NCBI GenBank assembly: GCA_903875445.1 | Contig: CAIQWD010000013.1 | Coordinates: 1 to 64,000, forward strand | Reading direction: 5' to 3' | DNA: 64,000 bases | Origin: an uncultured delta proteobacterium | Lineage (GTDB): Bacteria; Desulfobacterota; Desulfobulbia; Desulfobulbales; Desulfocapsaceae | In this document: positions 1-10,709 of the stretch, piece after piece | Layout: every line of letters starts with the position of its first letter | Numbering within the stretch: the stretch's first letter is position 1 | Position numbers and translations under genes: made by a program | The notes under the pieces: generated by a model | The model's database searches: none | The model's input: the letters and a program-made list of their open reading frames with translations, nothing else | What the model was told of the DNA's origin: nothing

Positions 1-80
1 ATTCCGAACACGGAAGTTAAGCTCTTCTGCGCCGATGGTACTGCATGGGTAACTGTGTGGGAGAGTAGGTCGCCGCCGAT
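1..80 (+). rRNA. rrf: 5S ribosomal RNA, 3' part
   Basis: The first 80 bases carry the conserved 5S rRNA core, including CCGAACACGGAAGUUAAGC and, further on, the GAUGGUACUGC and GGGAGAGUAGG segments, and end in GCCGCCGAU, which would pair with the missing 5' end. The window therefore opens inside the last gene of an rRNA operon. The exact 3' end is estimated. A strong terminator follows within 20 bases. Confidence 0.93.
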
Positions 81-96
81 TTCCTTCTTCAAACAA

Positions 97-3275: not shown

Positions 3276-4565
3276 ATGAGTGATATAAAAAAGATGTATT
3301 CAACCATTCTCGGAGATAGCTTTCCGATGGATATGACCATTTCCTTCGGAGATCAGAAACTCGTTTATCGTAAGAAAACCTGGAAAATTAAAAGCCCGGA
3401 CGGAACCATCGACGAACGAGGCGTACGCTATGGCGAAAACCCCGATCAGGAGGCAGCGCTCTATGAACTGATCAACGGCAATCTGACCCTGGGCGACTGC
3501 CGGTTTATTGAGCCCGGCAACGGCCTGGTTTCCGCTATCGCCGTCGAGGATATGCTCCAGGTCGGCAAACATCCTGGGAAAATCAATCTCACCGATATCG
3601 ATAACGGGCTGAATATCATTAAATACCTGATGAACAAACCGGCGGCGGTTATCCTCAAACATAATAACCCGTGCGGCGCTGCCTACGGTGACACGCCGGC
3701 AATCGCCTTCAACCGCGCCCTGCGTTGTGACCGTATTGCCGCCTTTGGCGGGGCTGTTGTGCTTAACCGAGCTTGCGATAAAGACACTGCGGAATTGCTT
3801 GCCAGGAATTATCTCGAGGTAGTCTGCGCCCCGGAATTTGAGAACGGCAGCCTGGATATTCTAAAGAAATCTAAGAACCTGCGCATTATCCGGATTGGCG
3901 GAATAGACCGACTCAGCGATTTTGAAAAATTCCGCTTTGTTGATTTCAAAAGTCTTATTGATGGGGGTATCATTGTTCAACAGTCGGCGGTCAACTCGAT
4001 CTGCAGTATCGCCGACCTGAAGCCTGCTATCGCTACATGGCAGGGCAAAGAATATCGATGCGAACGGCAACCGACAGCTCGTGAACTCGATGATATGATT
4101 TTTGGCTGGGCAGTTGAACATGGCGTCACGTCTAACTCCGTACTCTATGTAAAAGATGGCTGCACAGTAGGTATCGGAACTGGCGAACAGGATCGGGTCG
4201 GTGTTGCAGAAATAGCAGTACATAAAGCCTACATCAAATATGCTGATATTCTATGCTTTGATGCACATGGCATTGGCTACGCTGACCTTAAACTAGCCAT
4301 TGCCCAAGGCAAAAGGAAAATGGCCGAGAAAGATTCAATCGACCAAAAAGTTCAACATGATCATGCCGGATTACTTCGCTCGGTAATGATCTCCGATGCT
4401 TTTTTCCCTTTTAGGGATGGTGCTGATGTGGGTATTGCTCAAGGTGTCTCAGCAATACTCCAGGCGGGAGGTTCGATGCGTGACTTTGAAACTGTTGAGG
4501 CTTGTAATGAGAAACAACCGCAAGTGGCCATGATGTTTACCGGGCAGCGGTCTTTCAAACATTAA
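3276..4565 (+). CDS. AICAR formyltransferase (PurH C-terminal domain only)
   Basis: The 429-residue protein matches the AICAR transformylase half of PurH: RYGENPDQEAALY, a KHNNPCGAA loop, the AFGG segment and, near the C-terminus, DAFFPFRDGAD followed by an AGGSMRD motif. The N-terminal MGS-like IMP cyclohydrolase domain of standard PurH (about 200 residues) is absent, so ring closure to IMP must be done by another protein. It catalyses the folate-dependent formylation of AICAR in purine synthesis, in the cytoplasm. AAGGTG lies just before the ATG at 3276. Naming follows domain content; stand-alone forms are known in several bacterial and archaeal groups. Confidence 0.88.
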   Translation: MSDIKKMYSTILGDSFPMDMTISFGDQKLVYRKKTWKIKSPDGTIDERGVRYGENPDQEAALYELINGNLTLGDCRFIEPGNGLVSAIAVEDMLQVGKHPGKINLTDIDNGLNIIKYLMNKPAAVILKHNNPCGAAYGDTPAIAFNRALRCDRIAAFGGAVVLNRACDKDTAELLARNYLEVVCAPEFENGSLDILKKSKNLRIIRIGGIDRLSDFEKFRFVDFKSLIDGGIIVQQSAVNSICSIADLKPAIATWQGKEYRCERQPTARELDDMIFGWAVEHGVTSNSVLYVKDGCTVGIGTGEQDRVGVAEIAVHKAYIKYADILCFDAHGIGYADLKLAIAQGKRKMAEKDSIDQKVQHDHAGLLRSVMISDAFFPFRDGADVGIAQGVSAILQAGGSMRDFETVEACNEKQPQVAMMFTGQRSFKH

Positions 4566-4833
4566 TCCTCCTTTTTCCTCTATTACGGATTTTATTTTTC
4601 ATTTTTCCGGATTTCATGACCCAGTATTTCTTTTTCCGTTATGCACTCAATATTCTCCTCTCAGTGCTAACAAATCTAAGATGACAAGAAGGGAGGTATT
4701 AGCTGTTTATAAATAACTATTTCTGTTGTTTTTACCTGGTTGTTCACTAAACATGCTTCATTTTTATTTCATTTAGCTCTCATCGGACTGACAGATATTT
4801 TTTGACCTTTCAAAATCCACACACTGTGATTCT

Positions 4834-4850
4834 TGGCACGCAATTTGCAT
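4834..4850 (+). promoter_or_regulatory. Sigma-54 (RpoN) promoter of the PEP-CTERM gene
   Basis: TGGCACG (4834-4840), four bases, then TTGCA (4845-4849) matches the -24/-12 consensus with correct spacing and the invariant GG and GC. The start point would be near 4861, giving a leader of about 110 bases before the GTG at 4971. The rest of 4566-4970 is AT-rich and gene-free. It should hold the enhancer-binding site, but I could not pick one out by eye. Confidence 0.8.
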
Positions 4851-5726: not shown

Positions 5727-5761
5727 TAGATGCAGTTGAATTTCCTGAATTGAAAATTCAA

Positions 5762-5798
5762 ACAAGGGGTGACAAAAATTTGTCACCCCTTGTTTTTT
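5762..5798 (+). terminator. Rho-independent terminator after the PEP-CTERM gene
   Basis: A perfect 15-bp stem (ACAAGGGGTGACAAA with TTTGTCACCCCTTGT, two-base loop) is followed by TTTTTT. It ends the sigma-54 transcription unit. The near-perfect palindrome may also slow transcription arriving from the minus-strand lasso operon. Confidence 0.9.
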
Positions 5799-5863: not shown

Positions 5864-6766
5864 CTATCTCCTAAGGAGATATTCTTCAACCAACTGACCC
5901 GTTTTCCCAAGAAATTTCAATTCTCTTGGTCGATCCAGTCGGATTATTCTCGTTTTTTTTGTCAGCAAGGAACAGTCCTTAAACATTTTCTCCCTTTCGA
6001 CCGGAGATAACACATCCTGAAATCGAGAGAGATAGCAGCCACCTGTCAACCAAAGCATCTTATCAATACCATTCAGATCGAACAAATCAATCCGATCTTG
6101 ATGACTATTGAGCATGAAAACCGTATCCAACTCTCTTTCTTCGTTACAAAAACGTCCAGGCACAAAATAATTCCTCTTTGAAGCAGCAGAATAAACCCTA
6201 GGGTAATCCTCTGGGTTTAAGCCTATCGACAACATTGAGTCAGGCCAAAGCTTTATGCAAGGCATCCCTGGCAGGACCGATATTCTGTCGGAACCGACTA
6301 AAAGAGCTGTAACATCGTCGGAGAGCAATCGATGCCCCTCGGCAACCAGATGGGCAACAAGAGTTGATTTTCCATGGGTCTTCTCCCCAAGGAAGACAAC
6401 TGCTCTCCCGGAAATCTCGACAGAACTCGCATGAAGGATTAAGAATCCTCGCTGATGTAAAATAGCAGCTAACGCGAATCCATGGAGAGCAAGACGCTCA
6501 AGTTCAACGGAGCTATTCTCTCTAAAAATTATTGTTATTTCCCGACCGCCCAGAACCTCATATTCGAGGCCACCGTAAGGGCATTTGAAGAGAAACCCGC
6601 CTGTCGCGGTCTTTTCGGCAACAACCTTGCTCAGCGGACCACCTGACGGATTTGCAGAAAATATTCTTGTTATCTTAATATCAGCCCTGCATTCGTCAGT
6701 CTCCAAATATCCCGGGAGGGGTATTGAGGATACCACTCCTAGGCAATACGCAGAATAATAATACAA
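5864..6766 (-). CDS. HPr-kinase-like lasso peptide kinase
   Basis: The 300-residue protein has the HPrK/P C-terminal fold: HASSVEI, a P-loop GEKTHGKST (about residues 127-135), and SDDVTAL (about 149-155). HPr is not its likely target. In paeninodin-type lasso clusters a homologous kinase phosphorylates the C-terminal Ser of the precursor (established for that family). The neighbouring precursor here ends in Ser, which fits. The start is a TTG at 6766 with no visible Shine-Dalgarno. It lies 33 bases after the precursor stop and in the same reading frame. No ATG, GTG or TTG lies between that stop and the TTG, and family similarity (AYCLGVVSSIPLP) begins almost at once. It is the last gene of the lasso operon. 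Confidence 0.85.
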   Translation of the reverse strand: MYYYSAYCLGVVSSIPLPGYLETDECRADIKITRIFSANPSGGPLSKVVAEKTATGGFLFKCPYGGLEYEVLGGREITIIFRENSSVELERLALHGFALAAILHQRGFLILHASSVEISGRAVVFLGEKTHGKSTLVAHLVAEGHRLLSDDVTALLVGSDRISVLPGMPCIKLWPDSMLSIGLNPEDYPRVYSAASKRNYFVPGRFCNEERELDTVFMLNSHQDRIDLFDLNGIDKMLWLTGGCYLSRFQDVLSPVEREKMFKDCSLLTKKTRIIRLDRPRELKFLGKTGQLVEEYLLRR

Positions 6767-6799
6767 TGGAGAAAAGGATATTTCTTTAAATATGCTGCA

Positions 6800-6988
6800 T
6801 TATGAAGCCATTAAGCAGTTGCTGTGCCCTTCATTACATTCAACCCCATCCATTTTGGGCCCAAGACTTGTTGCTTTCGTAATTGTCTCAGCTTTCCCAA
6901 AAACTGTTAATAGAGGGGCCTGATACAGCAACTTACTTGCCTTCTCTATTTCTTTCGTCCCCGATATACCAGTGCGTCTCTTTTGCAT
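6800..6988 (-). CDS. Lasso peptide precursor
   Basis: This 62-residue peptide lies between the cyclase and kinase genes. Its leader has the YxxPxLxxxG...T recognition motif: Y22, P25, L27, G31 and T37. Placing the conserved Thr at -2 puts cleavage after K38 and gives a 24-residue core starting ATSLGPKMD, in which A1 can form an isopeptide ring with D9. The tail has C13 and C20, possibly a disulfide, and ends LMAS with a terminal Ser for phosphorylation. The A1/D9 register equals that of paeninodin. A G43-E50 (eight-residue) ring is a weaker alternative because Thr would then be at -3. The ATG at 6988 is preceded by GGGTG and is 18 bases after the cyclase stop. The assignment is strong from motif plus context; the mature structure is inferred. 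Confidence 0.85.
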   Translation of the reverse strand: MQKRRTGISGTKEIEKASKLLYQAPLLTVFGKAETITKATSLGPKMDGVECNEGHSNCLMAS

Positions 6989-7006
6989 AATTCACCCATT
7001 ATACTC

Positions 7007-8899
7007 TTAGTTTCTAATGATCTGCTTTGCCCACCATCGAGAAAATACAGTGGCTACAATCAGGTTGATTAACTCCGGTTGCCCCTCTTGTTGGCCACCA
7101 AACTTGAAGGCCGATAAGAACTGCAATAATAATTTTTCATCGATAATACCATAACTTGCTTTGACGATGATGTCAATATTCTCCGGCAGCCATCCCCCGT
7201 CCATCTCTCGGAACGCATGCAACATGCTCGGAGTAAAATCAGTCTTATTTCTCCTCTCGCTTATGCTTTCCGGCAGAAGATCACCTAAGGCCCTGCGTAC
7301 AATGCTCCTGTTTAATCCATCTCTCAGTTTTTCACTTGCAGGTAGTCCTAAACAAAAATCAATTACCCGTTTATCAAAGTATGGATATCGCGGAACAATA
7401 CCCTCCCTGGTCATAATACGATCAAAAAGCTCCAACGTCAGCGGATGAAGCGGTTGGGTAATATTTTTTAAATGATATATGTCTTCCCGTTGGCCAAATT
7501 TCGGTAATGTTTTCGTTGCAGCAAGTAAACGCTCCCTTGCTCTTGTCCTATTCAAAAACTCCGGGTTCAATTTTCGGACGGAATTCTCTATCTCTTTCCT
7601 GCGAGGTGAAAATGGCAAAAACACAGGAACTGTATTGCAAAAAATATACCAATACAGCAACATAATTCTTCTTCCTAACGATTTATATGACTTTCCCCCT
7701 ATCTTTTTATAATGTTGGGCGAGTCGAAATATTTTTCCGGAAAAAGCCAGCTCCGCCAATAGGCTGTAGCCATAGGAAACTGCCGCATCCCCATCATGGC
7801 CATCTAGAAGAACTCTGACTCCGGCCTTTCGTACTAATGGCAACAAGCCCATATTCATGAATATATGGGGTGCCATAAAAGGCTCGTCTTCATCATATAT
7901 AAGTTTTTCATATGCAACTGCCGGATGGATTTCATCAACAGGGATAACATGAGATGTCACCCCATAACGTTCTATAACAGAGGAAAAATATTCCCTTTCA
8001 TCACAACTGGAAATCTTATTAAATATCCCCGAAAAGGTATGCAGCTTCCCGCAGATTTCTTTCCCCAGCAGTCCAGCTGCAGTACAAACGATTGACGTCG
8101 AATCCAATCCACCGCTAAGAAGCGACCCAACAGGAAAATCTGATCGAAGACGAACCCGAACTGCATCAATAAATATTTCCCGAAACTGCTCCTCATATTC
8201 GCCTTCATTTTTACAGTTAAGTGTAGCAGGACAAAACTGATGGTATCGTCTTTTTATAGTTTTTCCGGAACTGATTTCCAGGTAATGTCCAGGTGGAAGG
8301 CGAAATATGTTTTTATAGAATGTTGATTCGTTGTCAAGGATTATGCTTGTTAAATAATCTGCAATCCTTTCATCGTTTAAAACTCGAATAACCTCTGACA
8401 AAACGAAAATTCCTTTGATCTCCGAAGCAAAAACAAAAAGAGTCTCCGACAAATAATAATAGAAAGACTTTACCCCCATATGGTCTCGGCTGCAGAACAA
8501 CTTCTTATTGGCCTGATCCCAAACAGCAAAGGCGAAATCACCCAATAAATAATCATCACATTCTTTTCGCCATTTCCGATATGAAGCCAGAACCAAATCA
8601 CTGTCTGTTACAGCCGAAAGTGGTTTGACCCACCCTATTTTATCATAAAGCTCCTGCCGATTATCAATCCTTCCATGGAAGGTTAATACAAATTTCTCAT
8701 CTTCTGTTTTATTGGGGAGCGTTTCAAAGAGCGATTCAGGCGTATCATGCAACATGCAATGGACAAACCCGACAGAATCTTTGCAATAATAATTAATTCC
8801 ATCGGGCCCACGATGGGCAAGGGCGGTACCCATTGCCTGGAGCTGTTCCAATTGTACAGGTTTATTGTTGCGATAGAAAATACCGGCAATCCCACTCAT
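7007..8899 (-). CDS. Lasso cyclase, asparagine synthetase B homologue
   Basis: The 630-residue protein has an N-terminal Ntn-hydrolase-like region (LAHRGPDG at about 28-34) and a C-terminal ATP-pyrophosphatase domain with SGGLDSTS at 262-269. The N-terminus reads MSGIAG instead of the MCGIAG of glutamine-dependent asparagine synthetases, so the catalytic Cys2 is Ser and glutaminase activity should be lost. This change is typical of lasso cyclases. It is expected to adenylate the ring Asp side chain and close the macrolactam with the core N-terminus. The start overlaps the leader peptidase stop by four bases (ATGA). Without the context it would be annotated as asparagine synthase. Confidence 0.92.
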   Translation of the reverse strand: MSGIAGIFYRNNKPVQLEQLQAMGTALAHRGPDGINYYCKDSVGFVHCMLHDTPESLFETLPNKTEDEKFVLTFHGRIDNRQELYDKIGWVKPLSAVTDSDLVLASYRKWRKECDDYLLGDFAFAVWDQANKKLFCSRDHMGVKSFYYYLSETLFVFASEIKGIFVLSEVIRVLNDERIADYLTSIILDNESTFYKNIFRLPPGHYLEISSGKTIKRRYHQFCPATLNCKNEGEYEEQFREIFIDAVRVRLRSDFPVGSLLSGGLDSTSIVCTAAGLLGKEICGKLHTFSGIFNKISSCDEREYFSSVIERYGVTSHVIPVDEIHPAVAYEKLIYDEDEPFMAPHIFMNMGLLPLVRKAGVRVLLDGHDGDAAVSYGYSLLAELAFSGKIFRLAQHYKKIGGKSYKSLGRRIMLLYWYIFCNTVPVFLPFSPRRKEIENSVRKLNPEFLNRTRARERLLAATKTLPKFGQREDIYHLKNITQPLHPLTLELFDRIMTREGIVPRYPYFDKRVIDFCLGLPASEKLRDGLNRSIVRRALGDLLPESISERRNKTDFTPSMLHAFREMDGGWLPENIDIIVKASYGIIDEKLLLQFLSAFKFGGQQEGQPELINLIVATVFSRWWAKQIIRN

Positions 8900-9339
8900 A
8901 GGGTATCTTCTTTAGATTTCAATGGAAGTTCCTGGTATAATCCCAAATCCGGCATATTGCCGATAACAATTTTTCCATCATAACTTAACCAGGCATGCGC
9001 CTCCAATTGTCGATTATCATTAATTAACACGCCGATATGCAGATCAGCTGCGCAATCATTCCTGGCAAAGAGCACAGAACCAGCCAAGGCTTTCGATAAA
9101 CACGTTGAATATGGCACAAAGCGGCTCACCTGATTTATGATTCTCGCAATTCTAACGGGAGGTACACAGCATGGTTGATGCGCTACAACAGCACCAGATG
9201 TTTTTGCAACTTCTGCAAATAGAATTTTCGGTGGTGTAAGTGCTAATCTGATGCGAAAAACAAGGAGGTAATATACTGCTTGAAAGAACAGGGTCTTTTC
9301 TCTAGGAGGTAGATTGATGAACTTCAGTAAATTACTCAT
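8896..9339 (-). CDS. Lasso leader peptidase (transglutaminase-like B2 protein)
   Basis: This 147-residue protein matches the small transglutaminase-like peptidase of split lasso B systems. The likely nucleophile is Cys80 in STCLSKALAG. His115 lies in EAHAWLSYDG, and an Asp just downstream completes the expected triad. LHIGV precedes the His, as in the family. It should cut the precursor after its leader in cooperation with the RRE protein. Its start overlaps the RRE protein gene by eight bases and its end overlaps the cyclase by four, so the three genes are translationally coupled. Confidence 0.88.
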   Translation of the reverse strand: MSNLLKFINLPPREKTLFFQAVYYLLVFRIRLALTPPKILFAEVAKTSGAVVAHQPCCVPPVRIARIINQVSRFVPYSTCLSKALAGSVLFARNDCAADLHIGVLINDNRQLEAHAWLSYDGKIVIGNMPDLGLYQELPLKSKEDTL

Positions 9340-9646
9340 TTTTAATAAGTATCAATCCATTATCAGCCAGATCTTTGAGAAATGCAAGGAGATCAGCAAC
9401 ACATTGCTCTCTTGCCACATCATACCTTTCAAGAATAGCATCGCGAAGGGCGGCAATAGTTGCAGGTTGCTCCAATTGGTTCCAGATAAAAGTACCAATA
9501 GTATCCAGACCGCTGTAAATTCCGGAGGCAATATCCAAAATTACCGTTTCGCCATCCAATTCGGTGGATATGCTGTCCTTGGCTCGATAGAGAATTAACT
9601 CAAACAGTTGTTGATTGTTCAAATTAAAAATTTCGTTATTTGTCAT
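9332..9646 (-). CDS. PqqD-family RiPP recognition protein (lasso B1)
   Basis: The 104-residue product contains ELDGETVILDIASGIYSGLDTIG and a helical C-terminus. This is the PqqD-like RiPP recognition element that binds the leader and hands the precursor to the B2 peptidase and cyclase. ATG at 9646 is chosen. A longer version would need TTG at 9694 and adds a non-homologous tail. No Shine-Dalgarno is visible, but the ATG overlaps (ATGA) the stop of a 24-codon ORF, so translation could be coupled to it. It is the first recognised gene of the lasso operon. Confidence 0.88.
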   Translation of the reverse strand: MTNNEIFNLNNQQLFELILYRAKDSISTELDGETVILDIASGIYSGLDTIGTFIWNQLEQPATIAALRDAILERYDVAREQCVADLLAFLKDLADNGLILIKNE

Positions 9647-9743: not shown

Positions 9744-10709
9744 CTACAGCAGTACCTCCCGCACCCCGACATACTGCACCCGAGTCAGGTATTTCTCACC
9801 GCATTTCGCAACCGCGTTCACAGTTACCCGATGGGGATGCCCAATTCCTATCGCTCTCCCATTTTTTTCCGATATTATAACCAGTTGTTCTAACTGGTCG
9901 CAAATCTTTTCCTCATCCAAGACATTATCGAGAAAAACATTTCTTCCAATACTTTTAACCGCCGCTTGACGGGCTACCTGCAAACCAACACTCCTGGAGG
10001 CCGTGAAACTGTCGACAAACATCAGGGATCGGTCCTTGATCTCTTGAATGATATTGATCATTGCCGGCTTATCCTCGGTGAAAGCCGACCCCATGTGGTT
10101 GTTTACACCTATTGCGTGCGGGACCTCTTGCAAAGATTTTGCAAATTTCTCTCTTTGCGTTTCCGGAGAATCTTGGAGATAAAGGGCCCCCGGTCCAGGA
10201 TTGAACGCACTGTTCTTGGGTTCGAGAGGCAGGTGAAGAAACACGGTTTTGCCTGCCCGGTGGGCAAGCCTCTCAAGTTTCTTGGTATACGGCGCAAAGG
10301 GTAAAAAGGAGTAGGTGAGTTCGATGGGGAAGGTCAACAATTGTTCCCCAATAGCCTCATCATAGCCCATATCATCGATAATGATGGCCACCTTCGGCAA
10401 TATCGTCTTTTTCTTGACAATTTTTTCTGCGATTTCCTCGACAACCGGCTCTCCAATCGACTTGACAACCGGTTCCTCAGCCTGCACAGGCGGGTCCGGT
10501 TCCTCAAATACTATGGAGCTGCGAAGTGCCGGGAGTATTTCCTGGGCTACAACCGTCCGGAAAAAAATCACATAGCCGACGGTACAGACGGAAAAGGCCA
10601 ATACCAACAGCAAAAGGAGATAGGAGAAGAATCTTTTGAGGTTGAAGGAACCGGCTTTTCTTCGGTTCCTTGCTTTCTTCTGAGGTCGTTTTTTCTTGGA
10701 AGGATTCAT
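9744..10709 (-). CDS. Divergent polysaccharide deacetylase family protein
   Basis: The 321-residue protein has a basic N-terminus, one membrane segment (about 25-50), a low-complexity Val/Glu/Pro linker, then the YibQ-type divergent polysaccharide deacetylase domain. Key pieces are KVAIIIDDMGYD, ELTYSFLPFAP, FLHLPLEP, NHMGSAFT, FVDSFTASRS and IGIGHPH. It probably acts in the periplasm. A few family members are linked to peptidoglycan or lipid turnover, but the substrate is not established. It is on the same strand as the polyprenyl synthase upstream (70-base gap) and the lasso genes downstream. Confidence 0.85.
   Translation of the reverse strand: MNPSKKKRPQKKARNRRKAGSFNLKRFFSYLLLLLVLAFSVCTVGYVIFFRTVVAQEILPALRSSIVFEEPDPPVQAEEPVVKSIGEPVVEEIAEKIVKKKTILPKVAIIIDDMGYDEAIGEQLLTFPIELTYSFLPFAPYTKKLERLAHRAGKTVFLHLPLEPKNSAFNPGPGALYLQDSPETQREKFAKSLQEVPHAIGVNNHMGSAFTEDKPAMINIIQEIKDRSLMFVDSFTASRSVGLQVARQAAVKSIGRNVFLDNVLDEEKICDQLEQLVIISEKNGRAIGIGHPHRVTVNAVAKCGEKYLTRVQYVGVREVLL

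Follow-up and report, generated by a model that had tools for sequence, protein, structure and literature searches.

Five genes in the 64,000-nucleotide stretch of DNA analysed here (the window) very probably form a kinase-tailored lasso-peptide operon, judging from their sequences, and a gene for a PEP-CTERM surface protein lies next to them. This kind of cluster is already known, and the main interpretation given in a preliminary description of the window is right in kind, though not novel in kind. What appears to be new is that PEP-CTERM genes also adjoin lasso genes in relatives, and this linkage is the part most worth following; open-access searches returned no paper on a linkage of lasso peptides with PEP-CTERM proteins or exosortases.

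The operon runs on the minus strand from 9646 to 5864 in the order B1-B2-C-A-K (Table 1). All five open reading frames are intact and lie where the preliminary description had placed them, and the coupling it had reported is seen as overlaps of 8 nt between B1 and B2 and of 4 nt between B2 and C, with gaps of 18 nt from C to A and of 33 nt from A to K. The same description had called for a search of each protein against lasso cluster collections. The cyclase C, whose reported Ser2 is visible in the sequence, exceeds the NCBIfam cut-off (593.8 bits against NF033535, cut-off 525), as does the peptidase B2 (62.2 bits against NF033537, cut-off 33), in which C80, H115 and D121, presumably the catalytic triad, are present. 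The curated cut-offs are missed by B1, A and K, with best matches that are still lasso- or HPrK-type; the best NCBIfam model for B1 is the lasso PqqD chaperone NF033536 (69.4 bits, cut-off 80), and A gives a weak leader match. In the PDB, B1 matches 9x90_B (2.3e-11) and TbiB1 5v1u (6.2e-10), and two of its three top matches carry lasso or TbiB1 B1 names. The cluster goes beyond chance, as cyclases related to C are found in many genomes with B1, B2, K and precursor open reading frames beside them.

Table 1. Features of the cluster and its surroundings, in window positions.
Feature	Position	Strand	Remarks
5S rRNA gene	1-81		
PurH-like protein, 429 aa, left border	3276..4565	+	78-89% identical in full-length-matched relatives
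Sigma-54 -24/-12 site	4833..4849	+	perfect match, ~120 nt upstream of PEP-CTERM gene
PEP-CTERM surface protein, 251 aa	4971..5726	+	PF07589; GTG start, convergent with K
Terminator-like palindrome	5760..5795	.	16 pairs, longest stem; between convergent K and PEP-CTERM genes
K, HPrK-like kinase	5864..6766	-	TTG start; His-Lys-Asp-Asp set, AF2 fold match
A, predicted core ATSLGPKMDGVECNEGHSNCLMAS	6803..6874	-	A1-D9 ring, C13/C20, Ser24; placed from the leader Thr
A, leader, residues 1-38	6875..6988	-	Y..P.L...G.....T-K, penultimate Thr (Thr37-Lys38)
C, asparagine-synthetase-like lasso cyclase	7007..8899	-	Ser2; SGGLDS at 262; NF033535
B2, transglutaminase-like leader peptidase	8896..9339	-	PF13471; NF033537 above cut-off
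B1, PqqD-like RRE, predicted leader binder	9332..9646	-	PF05402 4e-19
Polysaccharide deacetylase (PDA), right border	9744..10709	-	PF04748 1.2e-68; divergent, conserved neighbour

A PEP-CTERM neighbour and its recurrence in relatives

The PEP-CTERM protein matches PF07589 with 33.3 bits (cut-off 20.7), and the host genome carries an exosortase (PF09721, 236 bits, G000:C72), so that both the C-terminal signal and the genomic exosortase that mark a substrate of this sorting system are present. With its upstream sigma-54-type site, the gene resembles the PEP-CTERM/exosortase (EpsH) system, for which excerpts of PMC1569441 describe a regulon with upstream sigma-54-type sites in Proteobacteria. A structure prediction from two rows was uninformative (pLDDT 39). 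The preliminary description is silent on this adjacent gene.

The site upstream of the PEP-CTERM gene is the sole match to the sigma-54 -24/-12 consensus in the window at one mismatch or fewer, where 0.39 is expected and 32 of 100 shuffles have one, and 796 kb of control strands contain no perfect match. Terminator-like sites number 7 in the region (4.7 expected), and promoter-like matches are at chance (14 vs. 12.1 expected). A terminator-like stem stands between K and the PEP-CTERM gene, which also has a sigma-54-type site of its own, so that co-transcription of the two is not expected in the window. Near other PEP-CTERM genes such a site occurs with one mismatch (G014), two (the G005 relic) or three (G028, G033, G005), and none is found at up to three mismatches for G060, G064, G066, G020, G076, G063 and G074; a shared sigma-54 site as a common rule of linked PEP-CTERM genes was rejected, the match being perfect in the window alone.

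To describe the linkage at the level of the family, we counted PEP-CTERM genes found with the motif profile within 2 kb of lasso genes. Such a gene is present in 12 of the 25 family loci with a cyclase, against 0.34 expected (Poisson P 4e-15, with loci counted irrespective of relatedness); the expectation is based on 75 PF07589 matches in ~50.2 Mb of 12 genomes, ten of which were picked with the linkage known. The loci were picked by cyclase or kinase score and hence do not comprise every family lasso locus, and weak kinase-superfamily matches fall outside the set. The count also excludes L126 and L129 (no C match), L130 (a relic chosen for its PEP-CTERM gene), both L028 and L031 (members of other families), L029 (a cyclase-like match without B1, B2 and K), and L131 and L134 (selected by PEP-CTERM). 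Control DNA from six family genomes has no PEP-CTERM gene in 398 kb, and neither do 16 lasso-free deacetylase loci in 154 kb. As a hold-out we took another 18 B2 loci, of which 7 were left out for want of a C match (0/7 with a PEP-CTERM gene). Two of the remaining 11 C loci have a PEP-CTERM gene no more than 0.8 kb away, G074 being a member of the family and G168 not, against 0.15 expected (P 0.01, again irrespective of relatedness). The hold-out includes L198, which is L028 again, a locus already known. The hold-out rate lies below the first rate. Linkage is absent in 13 of the 25 family loci (at least 4 of which are truncated where the contig stops) and in 9 of the 11 hold-out loci.

Scanning the contig collection with a single cyclase gave no relative, and scanning with a five-row cyclase alignment gave 78 named loci (the best 80 of 566 confirmed candidates). 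One of these 78 has a PEP-CTERM gene beside it (again among the best 80 of 566), and that one is G033. L041, L043 and L111 are themselves contigs of the family, and in the other 75 loci, not traced to it and drawn from the same best 80 of 566 candidates, the linkage is 0/75.

It is also informative to consider which PEP-CTERM proteins are involved. In 93 genomes, a profile of three window-type proteins yields 8 matches above 100 bits. Six of these lie next to lasso loci that carry a kinase (G000, G028, G033, G060, G064, G066; three of these six proteins had trained the profile), a seventh lies next to the G005 relic, and the eighth is unlinked (G076). In the K clade formed by the window, G028, G060, G064 and G066 (SH-aLRT 99), a window-type PEP-CTERM gene lies beside every K. 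The other linked proteins are of the choice-of-anchor K type (G020, G063, G076), the F5/8 type C (G014), a thioester-domain type (G005) and another type (G089), and the types are unrelated to each other. In G033, G020, G063, G076 and G089 the PEP-CTERM gene stands in tandem with the precursor, and in G063 the stop and start of the two genes overlap. According to excerpts of PMC1569441 most PEP-CTERM genes are single-gene operons, unlike these five tandems with a lasso precursor. The cassette of G060, G064 and G066 lies at another site, between genes that we named by eye as glutamine-synthetase-like and ABC-transporter-like, and the PurH-deacetylase interval of G060 holds no lasso gene.

These observations suggest that the exosortase-sorted surface protein next to the cluster probably works with the peptide as a functional partner; as a guess, it might hold the peptide, or sense it, at the cell surface after export. 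In a rival explanation, to which we give somewhat less than an even chance, the PEP-CTERM gene has nothing to do with the lasso genes beside it, and the linkage mirrors the shared ancestry of a few loci. Linkage is indeed found mainly in two kinase clades, and the kinase clade of G018, G108, G003, G101, G072 and G062a has no PEP-CTERM neighbour. The sigma-54-type site that the window gene has to itself, the low hold-out count and the null count in named loci from elsewhere point the same way. Shared ancestry accounts less readily for the same position being filled by PEP-CTERM proteins of unrelated types (window, choice-of-anchor K, F5/8C, thioester), for linkage at two different chromosomal sites, for the five tandem arrangements with A, and for deacetylase loci that lack PEP-CTERM genes where they lack lasso genes. 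A functional partnership could be carried further, tentatively and with a good deal of doubt, to kinase-tailored lasso peptides and exosortase-sorted proteins forming one system in Desulfocapsaceae and their neighbours, with a phosphorylated, exported peptide acting at the producer's surface layer. If this is true, the PEP-CTERM protein would be an anchor, a receptor or an immunity protein, and phosphorylation of the tail would serve surface binding, not antibiosis. A surface-sorted partner that recurs in these genomes offers a concrete candidate for binding and points to a role beyond antibiosis.

Precursor, kinase and predicted product

Precursor A has 62 residues (6800-6988, minus strand) and matches the lasso leader model NF033528 weakly (E 8e-4, 19.4 vs. 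33 bits, residues 21-40). Its leader carries the motif Y-x-x-P-x-L-x-x-x-G with a Thr six residues past the Gly, features that recur in 16 family precursors, with an identical Gly-to-Thr spacing in 16 of 16; these precursors were selected by eye from a list that also contained spurious open reading frames. The precursors of G076 and G089 were located by eye only. A penultimate leader Thr is a mark of lasso precursors in excerpts of PMC10368454, and taking this Thr as penultimate means that Ala1 follows Lys38 and that an Asp falls at core position 9. The predicted core is thus ATSLGPKMD-GVECNEGHSNCLMAS, with a ring from A1 to D9, two tail cysteines (C13 and C20) that both fall outside the predicted ring, and the terminus LMAS, so that the precursor ends in Ser. 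Under the same rule the first Asp or Glu lies at core position 7, 8 or 9 in 14 of 16 relatives and at 10 in the other two, G003 and G101, which form a sister pair in the cyclase tree (100). The computed mass of the lasso with its disulfide is about 2430.01 Da, or 2509.97 Da when phosphorylated.

At least two cysteines are present in 10 of the 14 PEP-CTERM-linked precursors found, against 0/7 unlinked family precursors. The cysteine pair is not diagnostic and was rejected as a marker of linkage, since 22 of 67 candidate cores from beyond the family have at least two cysteines too; these candidates were chosen by pattern, with doubtful open reading frames among them.

At the domain level K can be assigned to the HPrK superfamily only (PF07475, 25.1 vs. 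33.3; TIGR04352, 43.8 vs. 200), and it is the one kinase of its type in the host genome. The AlphaFold2 model built from 40 rows has a pLDDT of 95.3 and a fold that matches PEP carboxykinase (PEPCK) and HPrK/P. H112, K133, D150 and D151 are the same in all 40 kinases of the alignment and match, by type and order and with PadeK outside the alignment, the His-Lys-Asp-Asp set reported as essential in lasso kinases (PMC9266682, in excerpt). Together with the C-terminal Ser, this set is consistent with a paeninodin-type reaction.

From these features we can propose a sequence of steps. B1 would bind the leader of A, K would phosphorylate the precursor on its C-terminal Ser, B2 would cleave after Lys38, and C would activate Asp9 and couple it to Ala1 around the threaded tail; the Cys13-Cys20 disulfide may form last. 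All of these chemical steps are deduced from the genes, motifs, order and conservation that we observe.

The preliminary description had the host making a phosphorylated lasso peptide. The lasso cluster with a dedicated kinase stands, and a phosphorylated product seems likely given the terminal Ser and the four catalytic residues. Nine of 16 family cores besides that of the window end in Ser, three have it next to last (G018, G060, G101) and four have none at either position (G014, G005, G020, G063), and outside the family 18 of the 67 candidate cores end in Ser. As far as these sequences go, not every such kinase adjoins a Ser-ended precursor, which counts against the phosphorylation idea. 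It is possible, if rather unlikely, that a lasso peptide is made and that K does not monophosphorylate Ser24, acting instead as a polyphosphorylating enzyme or on another residue, or being inactive. ThcoK and SyanK attach several phosphates (excerpts of PMC9266682), K is only distant kin of solved HPrK proteins (E 0.012), and several kinase-bearing relatives lack the terminal Ser. Monophosphorylation of Ser24 is favoured by the retention of all four catalytic residues, by the confident structure model and by Ser24 being the C-terminal residue in this precursor.

Comparison with known systems places the window in context. The paeninodin system of Paenibacillus dendritiformis, with the firmicute order C-A-K-B1-B2-D, shares the split B1/B2, the cyclase, an HPrK-like kinase with His-Lys-Asp-Asp and the C-terminal Ser (excerpts of PMC9266682 and PMC5067487). 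Compared by features only, the window differs from it in the order B1-B2-C-A-K, in having no D exporter, in its two tail cysteines and in its PEP-CTERM neighbour. SyanA/SyanK of Sphingobium yanoikuyae is likewise a proteobacterial kinase-tailored lasso system (PMC9266682, in excerpt), and a proteobacterial kinase cluster has the order A-B1-B2-C-K-D (PMC5067487, in excerpt); on features only, the window differs from SyanA/SyanK in gene order and in lacking a D gene. Cyanobacterial clusters (NF033535/NF033528; Nostoc sp. L044) share the C-A-K order and the leader pattern, with cyclase identities of 40-43% at loci L044-L046, and, unlike the window, no PEP-CTERM gene was found in these cyanobacterial lasso loci. 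Class IV lasso peptides (LP2006, pandonodin, felipeptins) have two cysteines outside the ring, as is predicted here, where the two may form a disulfide; no kinase is named in the excerpts of their descriptions. What lasso phosphorylation and further tailoring steps do has yet to be worked out, according to excerpts of PMC9266682.

The cluster contains no exporter gene, a gap that the preliminary description passes over. ABC-ATPase-like and permease-like genes (named by eye) lie upstream of B1 in G060, G064 and G066, with similar open reading frames in G018; the ~95% complete host genome has no close match to that permease (best 22%, E 1.7e-6). The permease of G028 (61%) adjoins the only B2 found there, ~434 kb from the remaining cluster.

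Host, genomic site and history of the cluster

The host is a sulfate-reducer-type bacterium of the Desulfobulbales with a 95% complete genome, in the same genus as Desulforhopalus sp. G009 (contig JANJUM010000046.1; Desulfobulbales, Desulfocapsaceae in NCBI), which agrees with the desulfobacterial type first assigned to it. Its genome has one lasso B2, and the other cyclase match is a single 31% partial on another contig. Lasso B2 above cut-off is present in 35 of 93 family genomes; the search across the order took in 257 genomes and found it in 42, of which 7 do not belong to the family. The kinase profile matches 43 of the 93 family genomes at E<=1e-5, many weakly. Lasso clusters had already been reported in delta-proteobacteria by mining (PMC4289311, in excerpt). 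The kinase-bearing set had been presented as a feature of Firmicutes, a view that is not supported: SyanK of Sphingobium has been characterised (PMC9266682, in excerpt), and a kinase-profile match is found in 73 of the 78 named cyclase loci (best 80 of 566 candidates). In 67 of those 73 (best 80 of 566) the kinase is on the same strand and no more than 4.5 kb downstream of C, and the named loci (best 80 of 566) are mostly cyanobacterial, with acidobacterial, chloroflexi and other members. Kinase-tailored clusters in Gram-negatives are not new, and the data suggest that they are established in Gram-negative anaerobes, not a Firmicutes import.

The site reads GlmU-like, PurH-like, [PEP-CTERM, K, A, C, B2, B1], PDA, IspA-like, DinG-like. 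As the preliminary description noted, the block is AT-rich (GC 0.39-0.45 vs. 0.49-0.52 in the flanks), with a GC3 of 0.35-0.43 against 0.50-0.58. Lasso genes occur at the same PurH-deacetylase site in G009, G014, G028, G033 and G089, with the PurH side alone seen in G033 and G089 and the PDA side alone in G009 and G014. Parts or relics lie there in G005 (precursor, B1, PEP-CTERM), G006 (a B1-like open reading frame at a contig end), G035 (B1, B2) and G030 (B2). Among 20 deacetylase loci fetched, 15 have no lasso gene (G003, G008, G011, G012, G013, G081, G015, G032, G096, G059, G076, G063, G062, G060, G061), three have some (G006, G035, G030) and two end too early (G083, G016). Around the cluster only short imperfect repeats were found, and among neighbouring open reading frames, named by eye, no mobile gene was recognised.

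The same description had the block acquired by transfer. Because lasso genes or relics stand at this site in other genomes and genera, recent transfer is unsupported. The lower GC3, the absence of the block from the site in same-genus G003, G008, G011, G012 and G013, and the cyclases of genus g7, which sit at another site and are about as close as that of G009, are set against the presence at the same site of B1-B2-C in G009, on a contig that breaks off within C. The cyclase of G009 pairs with the window's in the tree (SH-aLRT 99), and we regard horizontal acquisition as improbable. By path G060 is slightly nearer, and the window cyclase is 49% identical to both G009 and G060; the B1 tree is too weak for use. 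A clear GC deficit of the lasso genes against their flanks is seen in three of six loci (the window, G009, G033), while in G028, G060 and G064 it is not clear; those of G009 have 0.54-0.57 GC in a 0.60 GC locus, so that in this genome their composition tracks that of the host. An old presence at the site, lost more than once, accounts for the pattern better than recent transfer, and in Desulfobulbales the cluster has probably been resident here for a long time. Exchange occurs too: G033 (Desulfoprunum sp., contig JAUYSF010000021.1, classed in the same family here and as Desulfobulbaceae in NCBI) has at the same site a C of another clade. In a plasmid collection, 14 records have distant kinase matches, all below 60% identity.

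Split and partial gene sets

The lasso genes of G028, a relative with a one-contig genome, form a split system, in which the PEP-CTERM, kinase (K), precursor (A), cyclase (C) and RRE protein (B1) genes are grouped at one place from which the leader peptidase gene (B2) is absent, and the sole B2 found lies ~434 kb off from the other lasso genes. This distant B2 adjoins an ABC-permease-like gene.

At the PurH-deacetylase interval, where the window's own cluster lies, the relic of G005 holds B1, a lasso-type precursor and a PEP-CTERM gene, with no matches to K, B2 or C within L130. A more complete cluster occurs at another place in that genome (C103). No cyclase was found locally beside B1 and B2 in G035 or the lone B2 in G030, and these proteins possibly act in trans. 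The window's site is a few kb downstream of an rRNA gene (5S).

Precursors and their neighbors

Counted from the predicted cleavage point, the precursors of G003 and G101, which belong to two sister cyclases, reach an acidic residue only at core position 10 (usually 7–9), which may reflect a larger ring or a different cut site. Since the precursor start codon in G063 overlaps the PEP-CTERM stop codon, the sequence suggests translational coupling of the two genes. The TED-domain PEP-CTERM gene of G005 is ~1.8 kb from a lasso cluster.

Coordinates of features in the window and in relatives' loci (L-handles)
Feature	Genome	Position
Lasso precursor	G003	L022 11793-11951
Lasso precursor	G101	L124 12876-13022
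Lasso relic, window's site	G005	L130 9947-13049
B1+B2, PurH-deacetylase site	G035	L145 9857-10622
B2 alone, PurH-deacetylase site	G030	L146 6915-7397
PEP-CTERM stop/precursor start overlap	G063	L136 5737-5740
PEP-CTERM protein with thioester (TED) domain	G005	L024 14181-14846
Split lasso system	G028	L020 10066-12354 + G028:C1:811875-813112
5S rRNA gene, truncated by window's edge	Window	1-81
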